Source: a virus
IMG/VR virus record: IMGVR_UViG_3300042374_000326
Location: 1 to 37,042 of that record
DNA: 37,042 bases
Reading direction: 5' to 3' (one strand)
The position numbers were made by a program, and so were the translations under genes. Below the pieces are notes generated by a model. That model was not told the DNA's origin. It searched no databases and saw only the letters and a list, made by a program, of their open reading frames with translations. Positions 15,801 to 31,886 of this stretch are shown piece after piece. The first letter of the stretch is position 1; each line of letters starts with the position of its first letter.

Positions 15801-16059
15801 AACCACGCCAATGCAAGCCGCCGATGCGCTTATCGCATCGCCAGAGTTCCGCGCGGTGGCAATTGATGCGGTCAAAACCCAAGGACAGCCCAGCGCAAGC
15901 GCAGTGCGGCGCATGGCCGTTTCGCAGTCCTTCCGCAAGTTTGCCGAGCAGATGAACCTGCCGCGCGATGTTTCCGGGCGCGAAGCTTGGATCAGAAACG
16001 CAATTCAAACCGAGCGCCAATATACCAATGGCAATGGCAACGGAGCCAGAATGCAATGA
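12838..16059 (+). CDS. DNA ejection protein with N-terminal lytic transglycosylase domain, gp16-like (1073 aa)
   Basis: Residues 13-134 match a lytic transglycosylase (SLT-type) domain: likely catalytic Glu43 in TNGER, the SSAGARTVFQIIPETRD block (51-65), and AEYHGGTNRANWGP, which corresponds to the usual A-Y-N-A-G motif. It would open peptidoglycan during DNA entry. Residues around 370-425 are Gly/Ala-rich and hydrophobic (GGALATGATQAG) and could enter the membrane. Residues 440-520 are a Pro/Ala-rich linker. The rest is helical. At 1073 residues it is much longer than P22 gp16 (609), more like the internal-core proteins of other podoviruses. It overlaps the tailspike start by 4 bases. Confidence 0.87.
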   Translation: MSETRQAPPNDYRDPFWQDLIAGTEQRLGLPNGLLASVVTNGERTPNNRVSSAGARTVFQIIPETRDAIQRKYGIDAYLSPENAAEAAGLLLQESLQRNRGDVSAAVAEYHGGTNRANWGPITRSYTNRVMAGMQTDQEPVASQQSRAALQGFIAQRQQEEQQRNPLTRVYQAYRAGELTPEEQKQFEDDVRSNRVMLPPGGALLGELPRGLTAPSRAFEAPQQLLDAYTSGRLSRNEKIEFERDVEKGIVKVPEGFQLEKTEDLGLLGRVREAVTGEERRVAATEALPDWATMPELNQASFASFRAGLGTMASSPEETVRLIQAQFPGVQVRQDDRGNYILRSSVNGQEYAIKPGVRISDIPRAVGTALAFTPAARAPGVVGGALATGATQAGIEGTQALTGGSFDAGDVGMAAALGGAIPAAINVTQMARPLAQRTLDRLRGGAAAAPEVPPGGAAPAAPGMAAQAAPEPPPTAAPRVAPQAAPEPPAAAPRAAAAMPEAPPAGAPQYRPVAPDEVLQPGVNVRMNLQTGIPEVQVTPSPAAARPVAPAVSAMTGPELAQTARTAAQGGIFRAGAAREALAREAAPNPETVAAAQRLGIMDFLQPDHVTTSQAYRELAQAIKSVPSSQTRAAEMEGLQRVGERAQQILDSAGRTPRSELDATLRARFQNDIKLLSDASDRLYTRMREIVPARAEANADESLRIVNRRLEDLGGEKSSLTRLERSILQKLGPRENAPAPTYALLDDVRREVGRAARQQGPFADADTGLAKRLYAALTDDAAAVAERYGAKEMSDLARASVKMRKGIEDDFASLFGRELSGSMLNRMDQAIQAISKGDISKLSELLKAVPPDMRQEVVANGLATAFGRAAKNGELNFTTFTKWFDGLQKEPRAMTFLMSNLPKETVAQLKDLYQVSKGISMATREFVTTGRLQAVADQLKPADTLMGKVMEFAQRSAISAPLEGATSMIGLPGAGLAAGIASTLRAGKTTPMQAADALIASPEFRAVAIDAVKTQGQPSASAVRRMAVSQSFRKFAEQMNLPRDVSGREAWIRNAIQTERQYTNGNGNGARMQ

Positions 16060-21211: not shown

Positions 21212-21754
21212 TCAGGCTTCCTTTGCCGTGATAAAAAGGGAAGGCGCGCTTTCTTCAATCACCGCGCCAGGTATGGTTTCGCCCTGCTTAATGCGGGCGT
21301 TGATCAGGGCCTTGTTCACTTCATATTTGACCCGCCAAACATCGGCGGGCAGGGCTTTCTCATCTGTCACGACAACGCGATCAGACCCGCGCCGTAGCGT
21401 GGCGGTATGATGCAGCGATTCGGCGGTAGCCGCGCCAGGATCACCACATTCAGCCAAGGCGGCGCGCAAGGCTTCCCGCGCCGCGCTGGCGGTGAAATCC
21501 AATTCCTTTTGCATCCGCGCCAGGGTTTGCACCAAGGCGGATATTTCATTGCGGGCGGCTTCGATTGCCGTCACCGCGCCAAGCGCGCCGCCAAGGACGC
21601 CTTCAAGGCTATTGGCGCCGATCCGGCGCGCATAAGACGCCGCCATAAGCGCGCCTTCAATTCGGGCGAGCCAATTGCCAGGCAGCGGATTGGCTGGAAC
21701 ATCCAGCGCCGCAACGCGCTGGCGTATGGTTTCAGTGATGCTATCGGCGGTCAT
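21212..21754 (-). CDS. Gp157-like phage protein (180 aa)
   Basis: The long upstream frame is not coding; ATG 21754 overlaps the stop of the gene before it (ATGA). Residues 1-100 are helical. The C-terminal part has the pattern RVVVTDEKALPADVWRVKYE, then NKALINARIKQGETIPGAVI and a final SLFI strand, which matches the end of the Siphovirus Gp157 family. Members are found beside RecT-type or other annealing proteins, as here (RecT starts 3 bases after its stop). The precise role is not established; protection or recombination helper functions have been suggested for relatives. Confidence 0.75.
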   Translation of the reverse strand: MTADSITETIRQRVAALDVPANPLPGNWLARIEGALMAASYARRIGANSLEGVLGGALGAVTAIEAARNEISALVQTLARMQKELDFTASAAREALRAALAECGDPGAATAESLHHTATLRRGSDRVVVTDEKALPADVWRVKYEVNKALINARIKQGETIPGAVIEESAPSLFITAKEA

Positions 21755-22002
21755 TGGGTGCCATCTCCAAAAAGTGAAAGCTGCCCCGGTTCGGGGATCA
21801 GCACATCGGCGCCAAGCCCGGCCAGGGCATCGGCAATCGCAGCGGCCTCCTGCCGCAGCTCTGCCGCCATATCGGCGGTCAATTCGGCGCGATCGATCTC
21901 GCCGGCATCGTGCATCCGGCGCCCGGAAGCTTCCATCTGCCGGGCATCCAGCACCAGGCGCGCATGAAGCGCGACAAGGCGGGCAATGGTTTCGGCGCGC
22001 AT
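21751..22002 (-). CDS. Helical protein with C-terminal sliding-clamp-binding motif (83 aa)
   Basis: Residues 1-62 are helical and Ala/Glu/Arg-rich. The C-terminus after a Pro-rich turn reads EPGQLSLFGDGTQ, where QLSLF (residues 74-78) is exactly the consensus bacterial beta-clamp-binding pentapeptide (QL[S/D]LF). A C-terminal, exposed position is typical of real clamp ligands. The gene overlaps the Gp157-like gene by 4 bases. It may tether the recombination proteins to the replication fork or block host polymerase access. No wider family was recognised. The start is ATG 22002 with only a modest ribosome site. Confidence 0.78.
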   Translation of the reverse strand: MRAETIARLVALHARLVLDARQMEASGRRMHDAGEIDRAELTADMAAELRQEAAAIADALAGLGADVLIPEPGQLSLFGDGTQ

Positions 22003-22004
22003 GA

Positions 22005-22181
22005 TCAGAAATTCCAGGCAACGGCGCCAAGATCAGCGCAAACGCGGCGGGCTTCACGGCGCCCGGAAACGGGCACGCGCTGGCCCGCGCCGTAGTCTTG
22101 GCCAGCATTTACGATAGTCAGGAACCAGCCAGCTTTGCCGCCGTTGGTGAGATATGCGCGTTTTGCAGGAAGGCTATTCAT
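22005..22181 (-). CDS. Small hypothetical protein (58 aa)
   Basis: The frame is open to 22241, but ATG 22181 has a perfect GGAGG 8 bases upstream and is preferred. The 58 residues are mixed alpha/beta with the pattern AYLTNGGKAGWFLTIVNAGQ and a basic GRREARRVCADLG helix near the end. No family was recognised. It is the first gene after the small gap at 22182-22248 in the leftward operon. Confidence 0.72.
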   Translation of the reverse strand: MNSLPAKRAYLTNGGKAGWFLTIVNAGQDYGAGQRVPVSGRREARRVCADLGAVAWNF

Positions 22182-24104: not shown

Positions 24105-24293
24105 ATGAGCGATTTTATCGGCGGCTGGCCTTGGCTTGAAATGCCTGAAGTGCCCCGCGTTGTGGTGGTGCAGATTGCGCGCGAAGTGCTGCCCGTGCTT
24201 TTGGTGCGGGATATCGCGCCATCTCCCACTACTGCGGCAGATTTGGCGTTTCAATATGCCGAGGCTTTTGTGAAAAAGGCGCAACGGGCATGA
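24105..24293 (+). CDS. Small hypothetical protein (62 aa)
   Basis: ATG 24105 has GGAGGG upstream and follows the GcrA-like stop by one base. The sequence begins MSDFIGGWPWLEMPEVPRVV and goes on with a hydrophobic strand or helix and a helical end. No family was recognised. The stop overlaps the helicase start (ATGA at 24290-24293), so it is coupled to the helicase gene. Confidence 0.65.
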   Translation: MSDFIGGWPWLEMPEVPRVVVVQIAREVLPVLLVRDIAPSPTTAADLAFQYAEAFVKKAQRA

Positions 24294-25657
24294 ATGAAGA
24301 ATATCTCGCGTTTCTCGCCGCAAAGCGACCTGCATCGCATTCAACCGGGCTTGCATCAGTTCCAGACCTTCACCCGGCATTGAAGCCGCACCAGCGCGAT
24401 TGCGTTGCTTTCGGGCTGCGCCAGGGCCGCTTTGGATTGTTCCTTGACACTGGCATGGGTAAGACCTTTGCCCAGCTTGAATGGGCCAATCATGCGCTTG
24501 AGGCCAGCAATGGCAAGGCGCTGATCCTGGCGCCATTAGCGGTGGCCGCGCAGATCGTGCGCGAAGGCAAGGCGCGCGGCTATGAGGTGCAGCAAATCCG
24601 CGATCAGGCCGATGCCCGCGACGGCATTAACGTGTGCAACTATGACCGCCTAGATAGGCTGGACTTTGACGCTTTCGGCGCCGTGTCCCTGGATGAAAGC
24701 AGCATCCTGAAAAGCTTCACCGGAAAGACAACGCGCGCCTTGATTGATGCTTTCCGTGATCATCGCTTTCGCTGCGCTGCAACCGCAACGCCCGCACCAA
24801 ATGATCACATGGAATTAGGGCAGCATTCAGAGTTTCTCAGCATCATGAATGGTAATGAGATGTTGTCGCGGTTTTTCATCAACGACACGTCGCAGGCTTC
24901 GCAGCAATGGCGCCTGAAAAAGCACGCTGAAGGCGCGTTTTGGGATTGGATGGCATCATGGTGCCGGATGGCTGAAACCCCGGCTGATTTCGGATATGAT
25001 GCCAGCGAGTATGTCCTGCCGCCGCTGAACGTGCATCGCCACAAAGCCGCTGGCGATGTTCGCGCGCCTGCTGGATTGCTTTTTATGGGCGATCTATCGG
25101 CAACCACGCTGCACGAAACCAAGCGTCAGACCGCGCAAGCACGCGCGCAAGCCATCGCGGCAATCATGCCGGCCAATGATGCTTGCGTGGTTTGGTGCGA
25201 CACGGACTATGAAGCCGATGCCATCCGCGCCGAAATTCCTGAAATCCAGGAAGTTCGCGGTTCGCATCCGATCGAACGCAAAGAAGCAACCCTTGAAGCC
25301 TTTGCGTCTGGCGAGGTGAAGTGGCTTTTGACCAAACCAAGCGTTGCCGGGTTTGGCATGAATTGGCAACACTGCGCGACGATGATCTTCGCCGGGCGGT
25401 CATTCAGCTATGAGGCGTGGTATCAGGCAGTTCGCCGTTGCTGGCGATATGGGCAACAGCGCCCGGTTGATTGCCATCTGATTGTTGCCGAAGGTGAGGA
25501 TCAAATTGGCCGCGTGATTGACCGCAAGAGCGCCGATCATACCAAGATGAAGCAAGCCATGTCATCCGCAATGCGCCGCGCCATGGCGCAGGATGCTGGC
25601 GTGCGCGTTCCATATCAACCGACACACAAAGGGGAGTTTGCATCGTGGATTTCGTGA
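24290..25657 (+). CDS. SNF2-like superfamily 2 helicase (455 aa)
   Basis: An ATP-dependent DNA translocase or helicase. LKPHQ (31-35) is the Q-like motif, LDTGMGKT (52-59) is Walker A, DESS (135-138) replaces DEAH, ATATPAPN (164-171) is motif III, and the second RecA-like domain ends with WYQAVRRCWRYGQQRPV, the arginine-finger motif VI. Phage enzymes of this type are often paired with a DNA methyltransferase, as here: the next gene overlaps by 13 bases. It may help in replication initiation or remodelling. The DESS variant is usual for this phage subgroup. No nuclease domain is attached. Confidence 0.9.
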   Translation: MNEEYLAFLAAKRPASHSTGLASVPDLHPALKPHQRDCVAFGLRQGRFGLFLDTGMGKTFAQLEWANHALEASNGKALILAPLAVAAQIVREGKARGYEVQQIRDQADARDGINVCNYDRLDRLDFDAFGAVSLDESSILKSFTGKTTRALIDAFRDHRFRCAATATPAPNDHMELGQHSEFLSIMNGNEMLSRFFINDTSQASQQWRLKKHAEGAFWDWMASWCRMAETPADFGYDASEYVLPPLNVHRHKAAGDVRAPAGLLFMGDLSATTLHETKRQTAQARAQAIAAIMPANDACVVWCDTDYEADAIRAEIPEIQEVRGSHPIERKEATLEAFASGEVKWLLTKPSVAGFGMNWQHCATMIFAGRSFSYEAWYQAVRRCWRYGQQRPVDCHLIVAEGEDQIGRVIDRKSADHTKMKQAMSSAMRRAMAQDAGVRVPYQPTHKGEFASWIS

Positions 25658-26586
25658 GTTTGGGAAGCAACCAAGGCGATAACTGGCAAGCCATCCATGG
25701 CGATTGCGTGGATGTAGTGCGCCAGATGCCTGATGAAAGCGTTGGGTTTTCGGTCTATTCGCCGCCTTTTGGATCGCTTTTCGTGTATTCTGAAAGCGAG
25801 TGCGATATGGGAAATTCATCGTCCGATGGCGAGTTTGATCGCCATTATCAATACATGGTAAAAGAGAAATTCCGCGTTACAAAGCCGGGCCGATTGACTG
25901 CCGTGCATTGCACCGATCTGCCAATGACTAAATGGCGCGATGGGCATGTGGGATTGAAAGATTTTCCCGGCCAGATCATCAGAGTGCATGAAGATGCCGG
26001 ATGGATTTACCATGCACGGGTGACAATCTGGAAATGCCCGGTGGTGGAAATGACCAGGACGAAGGCAGTCGGGCTAGTGTATGGCCAACTTGTGAAGGAT
26101 AGCAGCAAGTCGCGCGTTGGCCTTCCTGACTATCTGCTAATCTTCCGCAAGCCAGGCGACAATGCTGAATCGATCATCCACGATATGGGTGAGGATACAG
26201 CACGCAATTTGCAGCGACCGCGCAAAAACATAGGAGCCAGCGAGATCCCATTGGACAAATGGCAAGAATGGGCTTCGCCGGTTTGGATGACGATTGACCA
26301 GACAAATGTCTTGAATGTGAAGGCTGCCAAGGATCAGCACGATGAAAAGCATCTTTGCCCCTTGCAGCTTGACGTGATTGAGCGCAGTTTGATCCTTTGG
26401 AGCAACCCCGGCGATACGGTTTTGAGCCCGTTCATGGGTATTGGCAGCGAGGGGTTTTGCGCGTTAAAACTGAAGCGGCGGTTTGTCGGAGTGGAATTGA
26501 AAGAAAGCTATTTCCGGCAAGCATCCCGCAACTTGGCAGCGGCGGAGCGTTCCGCTGAGAGCCTTTTCGATTGGGCAGCCGCATGA
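25645..26586 (+). CDS. DNA methyltransferase, N6-adenine/N4-cytosine type, beta-class order (313 aa)
   Basis: The start is GTG 25645 with GGGGAG upstream, inside the helicase end. The catalytic motif IV is SPPFG (residues 39-43) and the SAM-binding motif I is FMGIGSEG (263-270). Motif IV before motif I is the beta-class order also used by CcrM and HinfI enzymes. SPPF is more typical of N4-cytosine enzymes, so the methylated base is open. No restriction enzyme is next to it. It may protect the phage genome or change host methylation. It shares an operon with the GcrA homologue. Confidence 0.9.
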   Translation: MDFVSLGSNQGDNWQAIHGDCVDVVRQMPDESVGFSVYSPPFGSLFVYSESECDMGNSSSDGEFDRHYQYMVKEKFRVTKPGRLTAVHCTDLPMTKWRDGHVGLKDFPGQIIRVHEDAGWIYHARVTIWKCPVVEMTRTKAVGLVYGQLVKDSSKSRVGLPDYLLIFRKPGDNAESIIHDMGEDTARNLQRPRKNIGASEIPLDKWQEWASPVWMTIDQTNVLNVKAAKDQHDEKHLCPLQLDVIERSLILWSNPGDTVLSPFMGIGSEGFCALKLKRRFVGVELKESYFRQASRNLAAAERSAESLFDWAAA

Positions 26587-28864: not shown

Positions 28865-28955
28865 CCCCATCCGCGCCATCGCATTCCTTGGCTTCCTCTT
28901 TGGCTTGGCCGCAGGCTTATTGCTTGCGCCCATCCTGCAAAGGCTACGCCCATGA
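28857..28955 (+). CDS. Tiny membrane protein (32 aa)
   Basis: This starts 8 bases before the end of the preceding gene, the same geometry as at 28592, and with the same first 18 bases (MSDPIR). One hydrophobic helix (AIAFLGFLFGLAAGLLLAP) is followed by a basic end. The stop overlaps the nuclease start (ATGA at 28952-28955). Coupling and repeats support it; function unknown. Confidence 0.55.
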   Translation: MSDPIRAIAFLGFLFGLAAGLLLAPILQRLRP

Positions 28956-29296
28956 CCCGCGCCGCGCCAGAGCGTGCCATTCAAATCGCCATTAAGCGCC
29001 GCTTGGCCCTGTCTGGCGTGGTCTGCCACCACTCACCCAATGCCGGAAAGCGCAGTGTCATCGCCGGCAGAATGCTGAAGGCGGAAGGCATGATCACCGG
29101 CTGGCCAGACCTGACGCTGGTCGGCCCTGACAAGCGCATCGCGTTCCTTGAAGTGAAGGCCGAGAAAGGCCGCACGAGCGCCGCGCAAGACGAGTGCCTC
29201 GCGATGCTGCGCCGCATGGGCCACGACGTTGCGGTGGTGCGCTCACAAGATGACGCGGTGACGCTGCTGCAAGAATGGGGATGGGCGGTGAAATGA
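28952..29296 (+). CDS. VRR-NUC domain nuclease (114 aa)
   Basis: A stand-alone nuclease of the PD-(D/E)xK fold. GWPDL (Asp53), EVK (Glu67, Lys69) and Gln79 in the RTSAAQ block form the active site pattern of the VRR-NUC family. Length (114 aa) is usual for phage members. These enzymes may cut branched DNA or flaps during phage replication and recombination. It is followed by the genes leading to the VapE-type ATPase. The start overlaps the preceding stop. Confidence 0.88.
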   Translation: MTRAAPERAIQIAIKRRLALSGVVCHHSPNAGKRSVIAGRMLKAEGMITGWPDLTLVGPDKRIAFLEVKAEKGRTSAAQDECLAMLRRMGHDVAVVRSQDDAVTLLQEWGWAVK

Positions 29297-29751: not shown

Positions 29752-30134
29752 AAAGCCCATTCGCCATTCCAGACGCCGCCGCGCATCGCGGGGAGCGTTA
29801 CAGCCGGCGCCGCGCCATCTGGCGATCCGGGCCGCAACGATATTACCCGCGCCATGCCAGCATAGAACCCCACGCGGCCAAGCTGCTGCCAATGATGTTC
29901 GACACCGCCCTCCTTGAGGTTGGCGCCAGCTATGCCTTGCGCGCCGAAGAATTAGCCGAAACCGTGAAGCTGAACGCCGATAACTGGCAATGGCACACAA
30001 TACGCGGCACCGCCGAAGGCCGAGGCCTATACGAGCTTTACGCCTGGCGCTTTGACGTCCCGGTAGAAACCGCCGCAATCGAAATCCTTAATATCCTGTT
30101 TTCCGAAGCCATAGAGGAAAGCCGCCGTGACTGA
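29748..30134 (+). CDS. Hypothetical protein before the VapE gene (128 aa)
   Basis: ATG 29748 overlaps the previous stop. The N-terminus is basic (RGERYSRRRAIWRSGPQRYY). The rest is helical: ALLEVGASYALRAEELAETV and then LYAWRFDVPVETAAIEILNI. It ends 8 bases inside the VapE gene, so it is probably co-translated with it and may act in replication. Family not recognised. Confidence 0.68.
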   Translation: MKSPFAIPDAAAHRGERYSRRRAIWRSGPQRYYPRHASIEPHAAKLLPMMFDTALLEVGASYALRAEELAETVKLNADNWQWHTIRGTAEGRGLYELYAWRFDVPVETAAIEILNILFSEAIEESRRD

Positions 30135-31383
30135 CCCTATCATCGCCGCATTCCGCCAGCGCGACCGCAGCGCCACCCGTCACCGCAAGCGCATAGCCTC
30201 CATGGAAGGCCTATTAACCCTGGACGATAGGGGCCAGCCCGTCCCCAGCCTTGCCAATGCCATCGCCCTTTTCGCCGCCGATGAAAACCTACGCGACCTG
30301 GCCGGATATGACGAATTCCGAGATCAAGCCTATCTGTTGCGCCCGCCGCCGCTTGCCCAGGAAGGCGACACCCCAGCGCCCGGCCCATACCCCCGCGCAT
30401 GGCTGCGCAGCGACGTGGCCCTAATCACCGCTTACCTACAGCGCACCGCTATGCCGCGCATCAAGCGCGATATCGTGGAAGATGCCATGGAGGCGGAAGC
30501 ATCCAGGAGCCGTTTCCACCCCATCAGGGCATATCTGGACGCACTAGAATGGGATGGCCTATCCCGAATAGACACATGGCTTCATAGCGCCTTCGGAACG
30601 CCCCTGACGCCATATACGCAAGCCATAGGCGCCAAGTTCCTGATAGCCGCCGTGCGCCGCGTGCGCCGCCCTGGCGTGAAGTTTGACCATGCCCCGGTGG
30701 CACAAGGCCCGCAAGGCGCCGGCAAGTCATCCACCCTCGCTGCCCTATTCGGAGAATGGTTCTCAGATGCCCTGCCCGATAACCTAGGCGACAAAGACGC
30801 CGCCATGGCTTTGCGTGGCGTGTGGGGCCTAGAGATGGCCGAGCTTACCCAAATCCTCGCCACCGAGGCGGAAGCCGTCAAAGCCTTCCTAACCCGCACC
30901 GTTGACCGATACCGCCCGCCCTATGGCCGGCAGATCATCGAGATACCCCGGCAAGGCGTCCTTTTCGGCACCACCAATGCCCAAGAATGGCTACGCGATG
31001 CCACCGGAAACCGCCGCTGGTGGCCATTCGATTGCATAGCCTGCAACCCGGAATGGGTGGCAGCAAACCGAAATCAGCTTTGGGCAGAAGCCGCCGCGCG
31101 CGAAAAAGCAGGTGAAACGCATTGGCTTGACGATCAGGAAGCCAAAGAGGAAGCACAACAAAACCAAGAAGATAGGATGATCGAAGATCCATGGCACGGC
31201 AAAATTTCCGACTACATTGAAGGCTTGGCAAAAATAACTGTTCCATCAATCCTGGAAAATGCTATAAGCATGCCCGTCGCTATGCAAAACAGGGCGGCAC
31301 AAATGCGCGTGGCCAGCATCCTCACCCGGATGGGCTGGCAATCCAAGCGCAGCGGCACGTCCCGCTTTTGGTTGCCACCCTGA
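30127..31383 (+). CDS. VapE-type (virulence-associated E) replication ATPase/helicase (418 aa)
   Basis: The start is GTG 30127, 8 bases inside the preceding gene. Residues 130-180 carry the usual VapE lead (HPIRAYLDALEWDGLSRIDT). GPQGAGKSS (194-202) is Walker A. DNLGDKDAAMALRGVWGLEM contains the Walker B-like strand, and the LFGTTNAQEWLRDATGNRRWWP block (about 278-299) is the sensor and arginine region. The C-terminal 60 residues look like a winged helix (AAQMRVASILTRMGWQSKRS). Relatives act as helicases at origins in phages and phage satellites. The iteron array begins 1 base after the stop, which fits an origin next to its initiator. Confidence 0.9.
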   Translation: MTDPIIAAFRQRDRSATRHRKRIASMEGLLTLDDRGQPVPSLANAIALFAADENLRDLAGYDEFRDQAYLLRPPPLAQEGDTPAPGPYPRAWLRSDVALITAYLQRTAMPRIKRDIVEDAMEAEASRSRFHPIRAYLDALEWDGLSRIDTWLHSAFGTPLTPYTQAIGAKFLIAAVRRVRRPGVKFDHAPVAQGPQGAGKSSTLAALFGEWFSDALPDNLGDKDAAMALRGVWGLEMAELTQILATEAEAVKAFLTRTVDRYRPPYGRQIIEIPRQGVLFGTTNAQEWLRDATGNRRWWPFDCIACNPEWVAANRNQLWAEAAAREKAGETHWLDDQEAKEEAQQNQEDRMIEDPWHGKISDYIEGLAKITVPSILENAISMPVAMQNRAAQMRVASILTRMGWQSKRSGTSRFWLPP

Positions 31384-31611
31384 GTGACAACCTGTGACAA
31401 CCTGTGACATCTTCTGTGACAACCTCAACCCTTTGAAAAAAAAGGAAATGACATCCATGACATCAAAAACCGCGCCAACATTCCTACCCCCGCACGTATA
31501 TAGAATGTTGGAAAAGGTTGTCATAGGTTGTCATGGTTGTCATCTATCTATATATTCCAAGGGGTTACATAGTGACAACCTACTGTGACAACCTCAGAAA
31601 AATGACAACCT
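31384..31611. other. Candidate replication origin with 10-bp iterons
   Basis: GTGACAACCT occurs exactly at 31384, 31394, 31416, 31572 and 31585. ATGACAACCT is at 31602, and a degenerate copy GTGACATCTT is at 31404. The reverse orientation, AGGTTGTCAT, is at 31515 and 31525, with GGTTGTCAT at 31535. Two ATGACATC copies are at 31448 and 31457. Between the inverted and the right-hand copies lies an AT-rich segment (31543-31560) that could open. The 10-base spacing places the sites on one face of the helix. Genes of the VapE/Rep type in phage satellites often have their origin right downstream. Confidence 0.78.
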
Positions 31612-31886
31612 CAAAAAGCCAGCTAAACCTATTCGCAGAACCGCCAAAACAAGCGCAAGCCCTTGATCCCGCTGCAAATTACCCCACAAAAGCCAGCCGA
31701 AAGGCAGCATTCGACGCATGGGATAAAGAGTGGCAAAAATGGGCCGAAAATGGCATGATTGGCGAATATCCACACCCGCCCGCCGGGCTTGCATCCGCCA
31801 TCGCAGATTGCCTGATGAAAAACCCTTCCCGTCCCGCCCATCCCTATGCTAAAACCCCCAAACCGATCAGGAGCCGCCGCGCATGA
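31602..31886 (+). CDS. Small protein with N-terminal sliding-clamp-binding motif (94 aa)
   Basis: ATG 31602 is itself the first base triplet of the last iteron and lacks a clear ribosome site, so initiator binding at the origin could affect this gene. Residues 7-11 are QLNLF, close to the beta-clamp-binding consensus QL[S/D]LF, in a disordered N-terminus. The next part (YPTKASRKAAFDAWDKEWQK) is helical and the end is basic and Pro-rich. It could connect replication at the origin with the host clamp or divert it. Family not recognised. It overlaps the next gene by 4 bases. Confidence 0.65.
   Translation: MTTSKSQLNLFAEPPKQAQALDPAANYPTKASRKAAFDAWDKEWQKWAENGMIGEYPHPPAGLASAIADCLMKNPSRPAHPYAKTPKPIRSRRA

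Follow-up and report, generated by a model that had tools for sequence, protein, structure and literature searches.

Directly after a VapE-type gene, a P22-like phage carries a 228-bp array of iterons that is very probably its replication origin, and the VapE protein encoded upstream would act there as both initiator and self-loading ring helicase. Comparison with related phages makes it most likely that VapE reads the iterons and, by analogy with the SaPI/PICI satellites, that it loads itself as two hexamers. The DNA analyzed in full, called the window here, is a complete virus record; it is 37,042 bp long and carries a terminal direct repeat of 126 bp. The features concerned, in order of position, are the following.

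30127–31383, + strand: VapE-type (SF3/D5-like) putative initiator helicase, 418 aa (PF05272, E = 2e-72; phrog_256, phrog_1313)
31292–31383, + strand: part of the VapE gene coding for the recognition helix (residues 389–401) and wing (405–409, 412–416), from the secondary structure of the model
31384–31425, + strand: outer left iteron cluster, with sites at 31384, 31394, 31404 (degenerate) and 31416
31430–31471, no strand: AT-rich stretch (70%), left of the core and entering it
31448–31466, + strand: inner left iteron pair, degenerate, at 31448 and 31457 (PWM scan)
31467–31514, no strand: core, the presumed opening site, placed as in the cores of relatives
31497–31556, no strand: stretch with 70% AT, one of the genome's most AT-rich 60-bp windows
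31515–31543, − strand: inner right iteron triplet, inverted, at 31515, 31525 and 31534
31572–31611, + strand: outer right iteron triplet, at 31572, 31585 and 31602
31602–31886, + strand: next ORF, 94 aa, with its ATG inside the last iteron; the origin model does not need this ORF

Iterons and candidate initiator in the window

The word GACAACCT is expected 0.45 times in the whole window and reached at most three copies in 100 shuffles, yet it occurs eight times, and all eight copies lie at 31386–31611. The array that the original prediction had placed at 31384–31611 is therefore real and its coordinates are right, and the exact word is absent from the rest of the window. Exact matches to the ten-base site RTGACAACCT comprise five copies of GTGACAACCT (31384, 31394, 31416, 31572 and 31585), one of ATGACAACCT (31602) and two inverted copies (31515 and 31525), and degenerate forward iterons were found at 31404 (GTGACATCTT), 31448 (ATGACATCCA) and 31457 (ATGACATCAA). 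All the forward copies predicted earlier, five exact, one variant and several degenerate, were thus located, and so were the three inverted ones, although that at 31534 has one mismatch. The predicted 10-base tandem spacing is seen at 31384/31394/31404, and the inverted sites at 31515/31525/31534 follow at pitches of 10 and 9. Altogether the array holds 12 ten-base sites, six on either side of a 48-bp core, a count that includes the three degenerate sites. Its first base directly follows the VapE stop codon, such that the candidate origin lies immediately 3′ of the putative initiator gene, as had been noted from the sequence.

An AT-rich core had also been predicted between the clusters, and this holds for the flanks of the core but not for the core itself. 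The flanks at 31430–31470 and 31497–31556 are both 70% AT, a level reached by 0.014% of the 60-bp windows of the genome, whereas the core (31467–31514) is 52% AT against 42% for the genome. The two iteron sets flank a core that has 70%-AT stretches at its edges; the outer right cluster is unmirrored (mirror p 0.18). Within the core, 12 nt alternate between purine and pyrimidine (CGCACGTATATA); CCAACATTC (31475–31483) and GAATGTTGG (31503–31511) form a 9-bp inverted repeat there, possibly a hairpin. The detrended GC skew reaches its minimum at 34.2 kb, and the dip leading there from 28.7 kb is local only and does not mark the array.

The AlphaFold2 model of the window VapE (mean pLDDT 93.5) aligns over residues 24–418 with the SaPI PriRep1–dsDNA structure 7pds at Z 34.7, the next best match being 14.4, and the 7pds profile matches the protein at E = 7.6e-83. 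Based on the PF05272 match, this profile and the structural Z, the protein belongs to the SaPI Rep (VapE/PriRep) family of helicases. The 7pds alignment takes in a C-terminal winged helix, modeled at about residues 355–417 with helices at 355–364, 372–379 and 389–401 and wing strands at 405–409 and 412–416. An N-terminal primase domain was not detected in the 418-aa protein. Domain searches found no Rep_3/RepA-type initiator domain in the genes neighboring the iterons, and an iteron plasmid of the RepA/Rep_3 kind was rejected for this reason.

The remainder of the window is that of a P22-like phage, with family matches to P22 coat, P22 portal and TerL. A PICI satellite as the whole element was rejected, given that satellites depend on a helper and do not carry the structural and packaging genes present here; among relatives, a large terminase was likewise found in 18 of the 20 records searched. 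The early region also encodes a Mu Gam-like end-protection match (21212–22108, − strand), a DEAD-type helicase (24290–25657), an N6/N4 DNA methylase (25645–26586) and a VRR-NUC nuclease (28952–29296), and a tail protein at 16008–18290 matches the N-terminal extension of phage endosialidase (PF12218).

Arrays and dyad layout beside VapE in relatives

In the first four VapE relatives compared (35–38% identity), an array lies just 3′ of VapE in all four, and the word or the arrangement differs from one to the next. A wider set was reduced at 80% identity to 54 non-redundant loci, and an array was called where some 7-mer had five or more copies inside a 350-bp span no farther than 700 bp from the VapE stop. 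Clustered arrays follow VapE in 36 of these 54 loci; the same criterion picked out 1 of 3240 dinucleotide-shuffled sequences and 2 of 322 windows taken upstream in these loci. Several further loci have the array 1.3–3.3 kb downstream, behind inserted genes, and in about one-fifth of the 54 it is weak or lacking. Distant relatives (35–45% identical) retain the array with a different repeat word per phage, and an iteron origin beside a VapE-type initiator is the best reading, as originally suggested.

Such arrays are not peculiar to a P22-like alphaproteobacterial phage, as had been supposed, for they were found in many proteobacterial phages and in three Gram-positive ones. In the latter (L174, Lachnospiraceae; L175, Streptococcus Javan405; L176, Paenibacillus Bob), repeats lie just after VapE with the words GGTTTCCC, GGCAACC and CTGCAAC (10 copies), respectively; in the Bacteroides phage examined, no repeats follow VapE. 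The predicted post-VapE iteron origin is general in this VapE family across many proteobacterial phages. One of these, Marinobacter phage PS3 (L011), has a plain iteron array, and the paper describing it is silent on an origin and classes the VapE domain as an auxiliary metabolic gene (PMC8424206). In L010 alone, the array lies within the VapE reading frame itself (~776–1081, minus-strand gene), where it forms a translated C-terminal tail immediately behind the winged helix.

Mostly opposite-strand cargo genes stand between VapE and the array in L017, L027, L028, L038, L044, L050 and L062; judged by eye, they include amidohydrolase-like, HSP90-like ATPase, thiazole-kinase-like and other types, and the VapE–origin junction looks like a cargo hotspot. 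A different array with GTTTCCA or GTTACCA words lies 2.5–3.2 kb after VapE in L044/L210, L052/L207, L204, L205 and L222. It coexists with a VapE-type array in L044, which suggests a second initiator system.

Could the array instead be an operator or enhancer for late or downstream genes, bound by VapE as an autoregulator or by another phage protein, with replication starting elsewhere? It does sit between the early and the packaging genes, and its last iteron (31602–31611) contains the start codon of the next ORF, which encodes a 94-aa protein for which profile searches returned no family match. However, the gene downstream varies by phage, and in some loci it is opposite-strand cargo, such that VapE is the constant neighbor; moreover, a dyad with a core would be unusual for an operator. 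We regard the operator reading as improbable.

A terminase-recognized packaging site (a pac site or cos enhancer) is very improbable. TerL starts 1.1 kb downstream of the array in the window, and a terminase lies 1–2.5 kb off in several relatives, a proximity that such a site would explain. Across loci, however, TerL lies anywhere from ~1 kb to ~7 kb (L011, L079), 11 kb (L025) or 12 kb (L034) from an array that itself stays after VapE, and the terminases come from different families. With both distance and terminase type varying, a pac site was rejected as the main reading.

The origin reading also accounts for a layout that outlasts its words. Within each array the repeat word is uniform, and between phages it changes (GGTTGTCAC, GGTGTCACA, GGTTGTCTT, GGTGGGACA, GGTTGGCAA and others) around a common theme of GGT followed by variable bases. 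The arrays follow a dyad plan: two or three direct copies at a pitch of 8–10 bp come first, then, some 20 bp further, an inverted copy; another two or three direct copies precede the core, beyond which the plan is mirrored. L103, for example, has spacings of 9-20-36-9-9-[53]-9-9-36-20-9, and L104 shares its spacings on both sides (9, 20, 36, 9, 9) with a core of different length. The mean share of sites with a mirror partner is 75%, as compared with 45% when spacings and orientations are permuted. In the left half, six sites are seen most often (17 of 42 arrays), and on the right three, four and six tie for the top at 10 of 42 each, so six per side is common and not universal.

Many relatives have a core of alternating purine–pyrimidine sequence instead of an AT-rich one: the longest alternating run is at least 20 nt in 31% of arrays and in 0 of 753 control windows. 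Alternating, Z-DNA-prone tracts of 20–48 nt were seen in the array cores of L060, L006, L103, L130 and others.

The retention of spacing and orientation while words change also bears on the possibility that the repeats act as RNA (a structured leader or an attenuator) or are a neutral, satellite-like expansion, and it argues against both. Inverted copies could indeed pair as RNA; still, the best Rfam hit has an E value of 0.89, far below the gathering score, and an RNA element was rejected on the lack of a match. We consider this pair of explanations extremely improbable.

Winged-helix residues covary with iteron bases

A question for the origin reading is which part of VapE would recognize words that differ from phage to phage. 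The original prediction had tentatively pointed to its winged-helix end. Over 42 loci, no universal residue-to-base code was found across distant VapE subfamilies, the C-terminal domain (partial r 0.15) being only a slightly better predictor of the motif than the helicase part (0.10); for this reason, a code was tested only inside subfamilies. In a Pseudomonas set, the wing residue two past a conserved Trp (W+2) reads K where the iteron is GTAGGACA and R where it is GTGGGACA, a pairing of K/R with the iteron base A/G that holds in 75 of 76 loci; W+2 is the top column of 443. Because about two independent changes on the tree suffice for this K/R switch despite the 75 of 76, it is used as support only.

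A Bradyrhizobium-type set offers two such positions. In the recognition helix, residue V+1 tracks the choice between GTTGG and GTGG; in the wing, residue W+4 tracks that between TGAC and GAC. Each of the four residue/base combinations was found. The residues were first picked by eye, and the rule was written down before 80 further loci were fetched. Held-out counts refer to new loci with less than 97% identity to the first set. At W+4, R or K went with GAC in 35 of 35 and Q with TGAC in 21 of 25; at V+1, S or T went with GTTGG in 19 of 22 and G with GTGG in 22 of 31, where eight of the nine misses have the VGAFF context that had been named beforehand as an exception. An A at V+1 accompanied iteron T in all seven new loci of this kind. 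In the window VapE, V+1, W+2 and W+4 correspond to A396, S406 and R408, and A396 agrees with the T of the window's iteron.

Several of the loci with GTTTCCA/GTTACCA arrays are among the exceptions in the held-out test. The iterons are GTAGGAC in L232, L250 and L251 and GTTGGAC in L233 and L245–L247, with identical tested residues (VGAFF, WVKYR); therefore, another residue must also specify that base.

To what extent might shared ancestry explain these pairings? On trees built from the helicase only, with the winged helix left out, independent pairs were concordant in 5.7 of 7 cases for V+1 and 4 of 4 for W+4, with none opposing, and crossed residue–base pairings showed no association; these tree counts take in every new locus with a clear array. 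The sign tests are modest (p ~0.03 for V+1 and ~0.125 for W+4) because the independent pairs are few. In all, the covariation rests on about 12 independent switches, namely about six at V+1 with a concordant base change, four at W+4 and about two at W+2. Taken together, the covariation, the held-out test and the concordant trees make it most likely that VapE reads the iterons, and they favor the winged-helix end as the reader. That iteron bases track VapE residues also counts against the operator, packaging and RNA or neutral readings.

Model for initiation and comparison with known replicons

Iteron binding, hexamer loading, core melting and a bidirectional start would proceed in the window phage as in its SaPI and SCCmec relatives. 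The C-terminal winged helix would read a 9–10 bp iteron, with V+1, W+2 and W+4 each matching particular bases. On either side of the core, six iterons would gather six subunits into a hexamer, giving two hexamers that face each other, and the window's twelve sites in two halves fit this number. The two VapE hexamers would then open the core and depart in both directions, with priming and synthesis carried out by host enzymes or by another phage primase. A broader proposal, which we put forward tentatively and with some doubt, is that VapE phages share a two-hexamer dyad origin with six iterons per half; that iterons and winged helix co-diversify by a residue-to-base code that is readable and in part modular, so that many mutually orthogonal replicons result; and that the core opens through an alternating purine–pyrimidine (Z-DNA-prone) tract, not a classical AT-rich element.

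In lambda, the O initiator adjoins its iterons, and the iteron type varies between phages with the DNA-binding domain of the initiator. The adjacency is shared with the window; however, the lambda iterons are embedded in the O gene and O is not itself a helicase, whereas the putative initiator here is itself a ring helicase by family and fold and the array lies 3′ of its gene. A lambda O-type origin was rejected on these grounds. Streptococcus thermophilus Sfi21-type phages reportedly have a non-coding origin beside a primase/helicase gene of D5/VapE type, which is likewise an origin of this kind in a complete phage, though a Gram-positive one.

The closest likeness is to the pri-rep-ori of SaPI/PICI elements (SaPI5 PriRep1, SaPIbov1 Rep; Fillol-Salom 2018, PMC6092414; Ubeda 2007, as cited in PMC7581432), which has a helicase of the same family (7pds), an origin 3′ of the initiator gene and two iteron sets around an opening region, with the C-terminal domain as reader, a role that comparison of relatives makes likely for it here. 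SaPI Rep binds iterons directly downstream of its own gene via this domain, apparently as two hexamers (PMC7581432), and in E. coli a plasmid can replicate from a PICI rep-ori (PMC6092414). The SCCmec protein Cch2, a D5-family helicase, also binds repeats directly downstream of its gene via its C-terminal domain (PMC7581432). Its putative origin shares the placement seen here but has three 5-nt iterons in 23 bp, as compared with 12 iterons of 9–10 bp in 228 bp in the window. The phage system differs from SaPI/PICI in that it belongs to a complete phage with P22-type coat, portal and terminase, in that the dyad is often 6+6 and the core often alternating purine–pyrimidine, and in that no fused primase was detected in the putative initiator of the window phage.

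The SaPI/PICI origin layout was stated in 2018 to occur in no other known replicon (Fillol-Salom 2018, PMC6092414). Contrary to that statement, the predicted dyad VapE origin is widespread in terminase-bearing phages, and a layout described as unique to satellites would be a replication module that ordinary temperate phages commonly carry. Their VapE genes are often annotated merely as "virulence-associated protein E" or "primase". The arrangement gives a rule for locating origins in uncultured phages, and its natural initiator–iteron pairs make the specificity of the helicase testable per single residue and base. Because the symmetrical arrays count sites, placement of two hexamers by a self-loading helicase is directly testable as well. 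The finding further bears on the origin of satellite replicons and on the competition between phage and satellite replicons.
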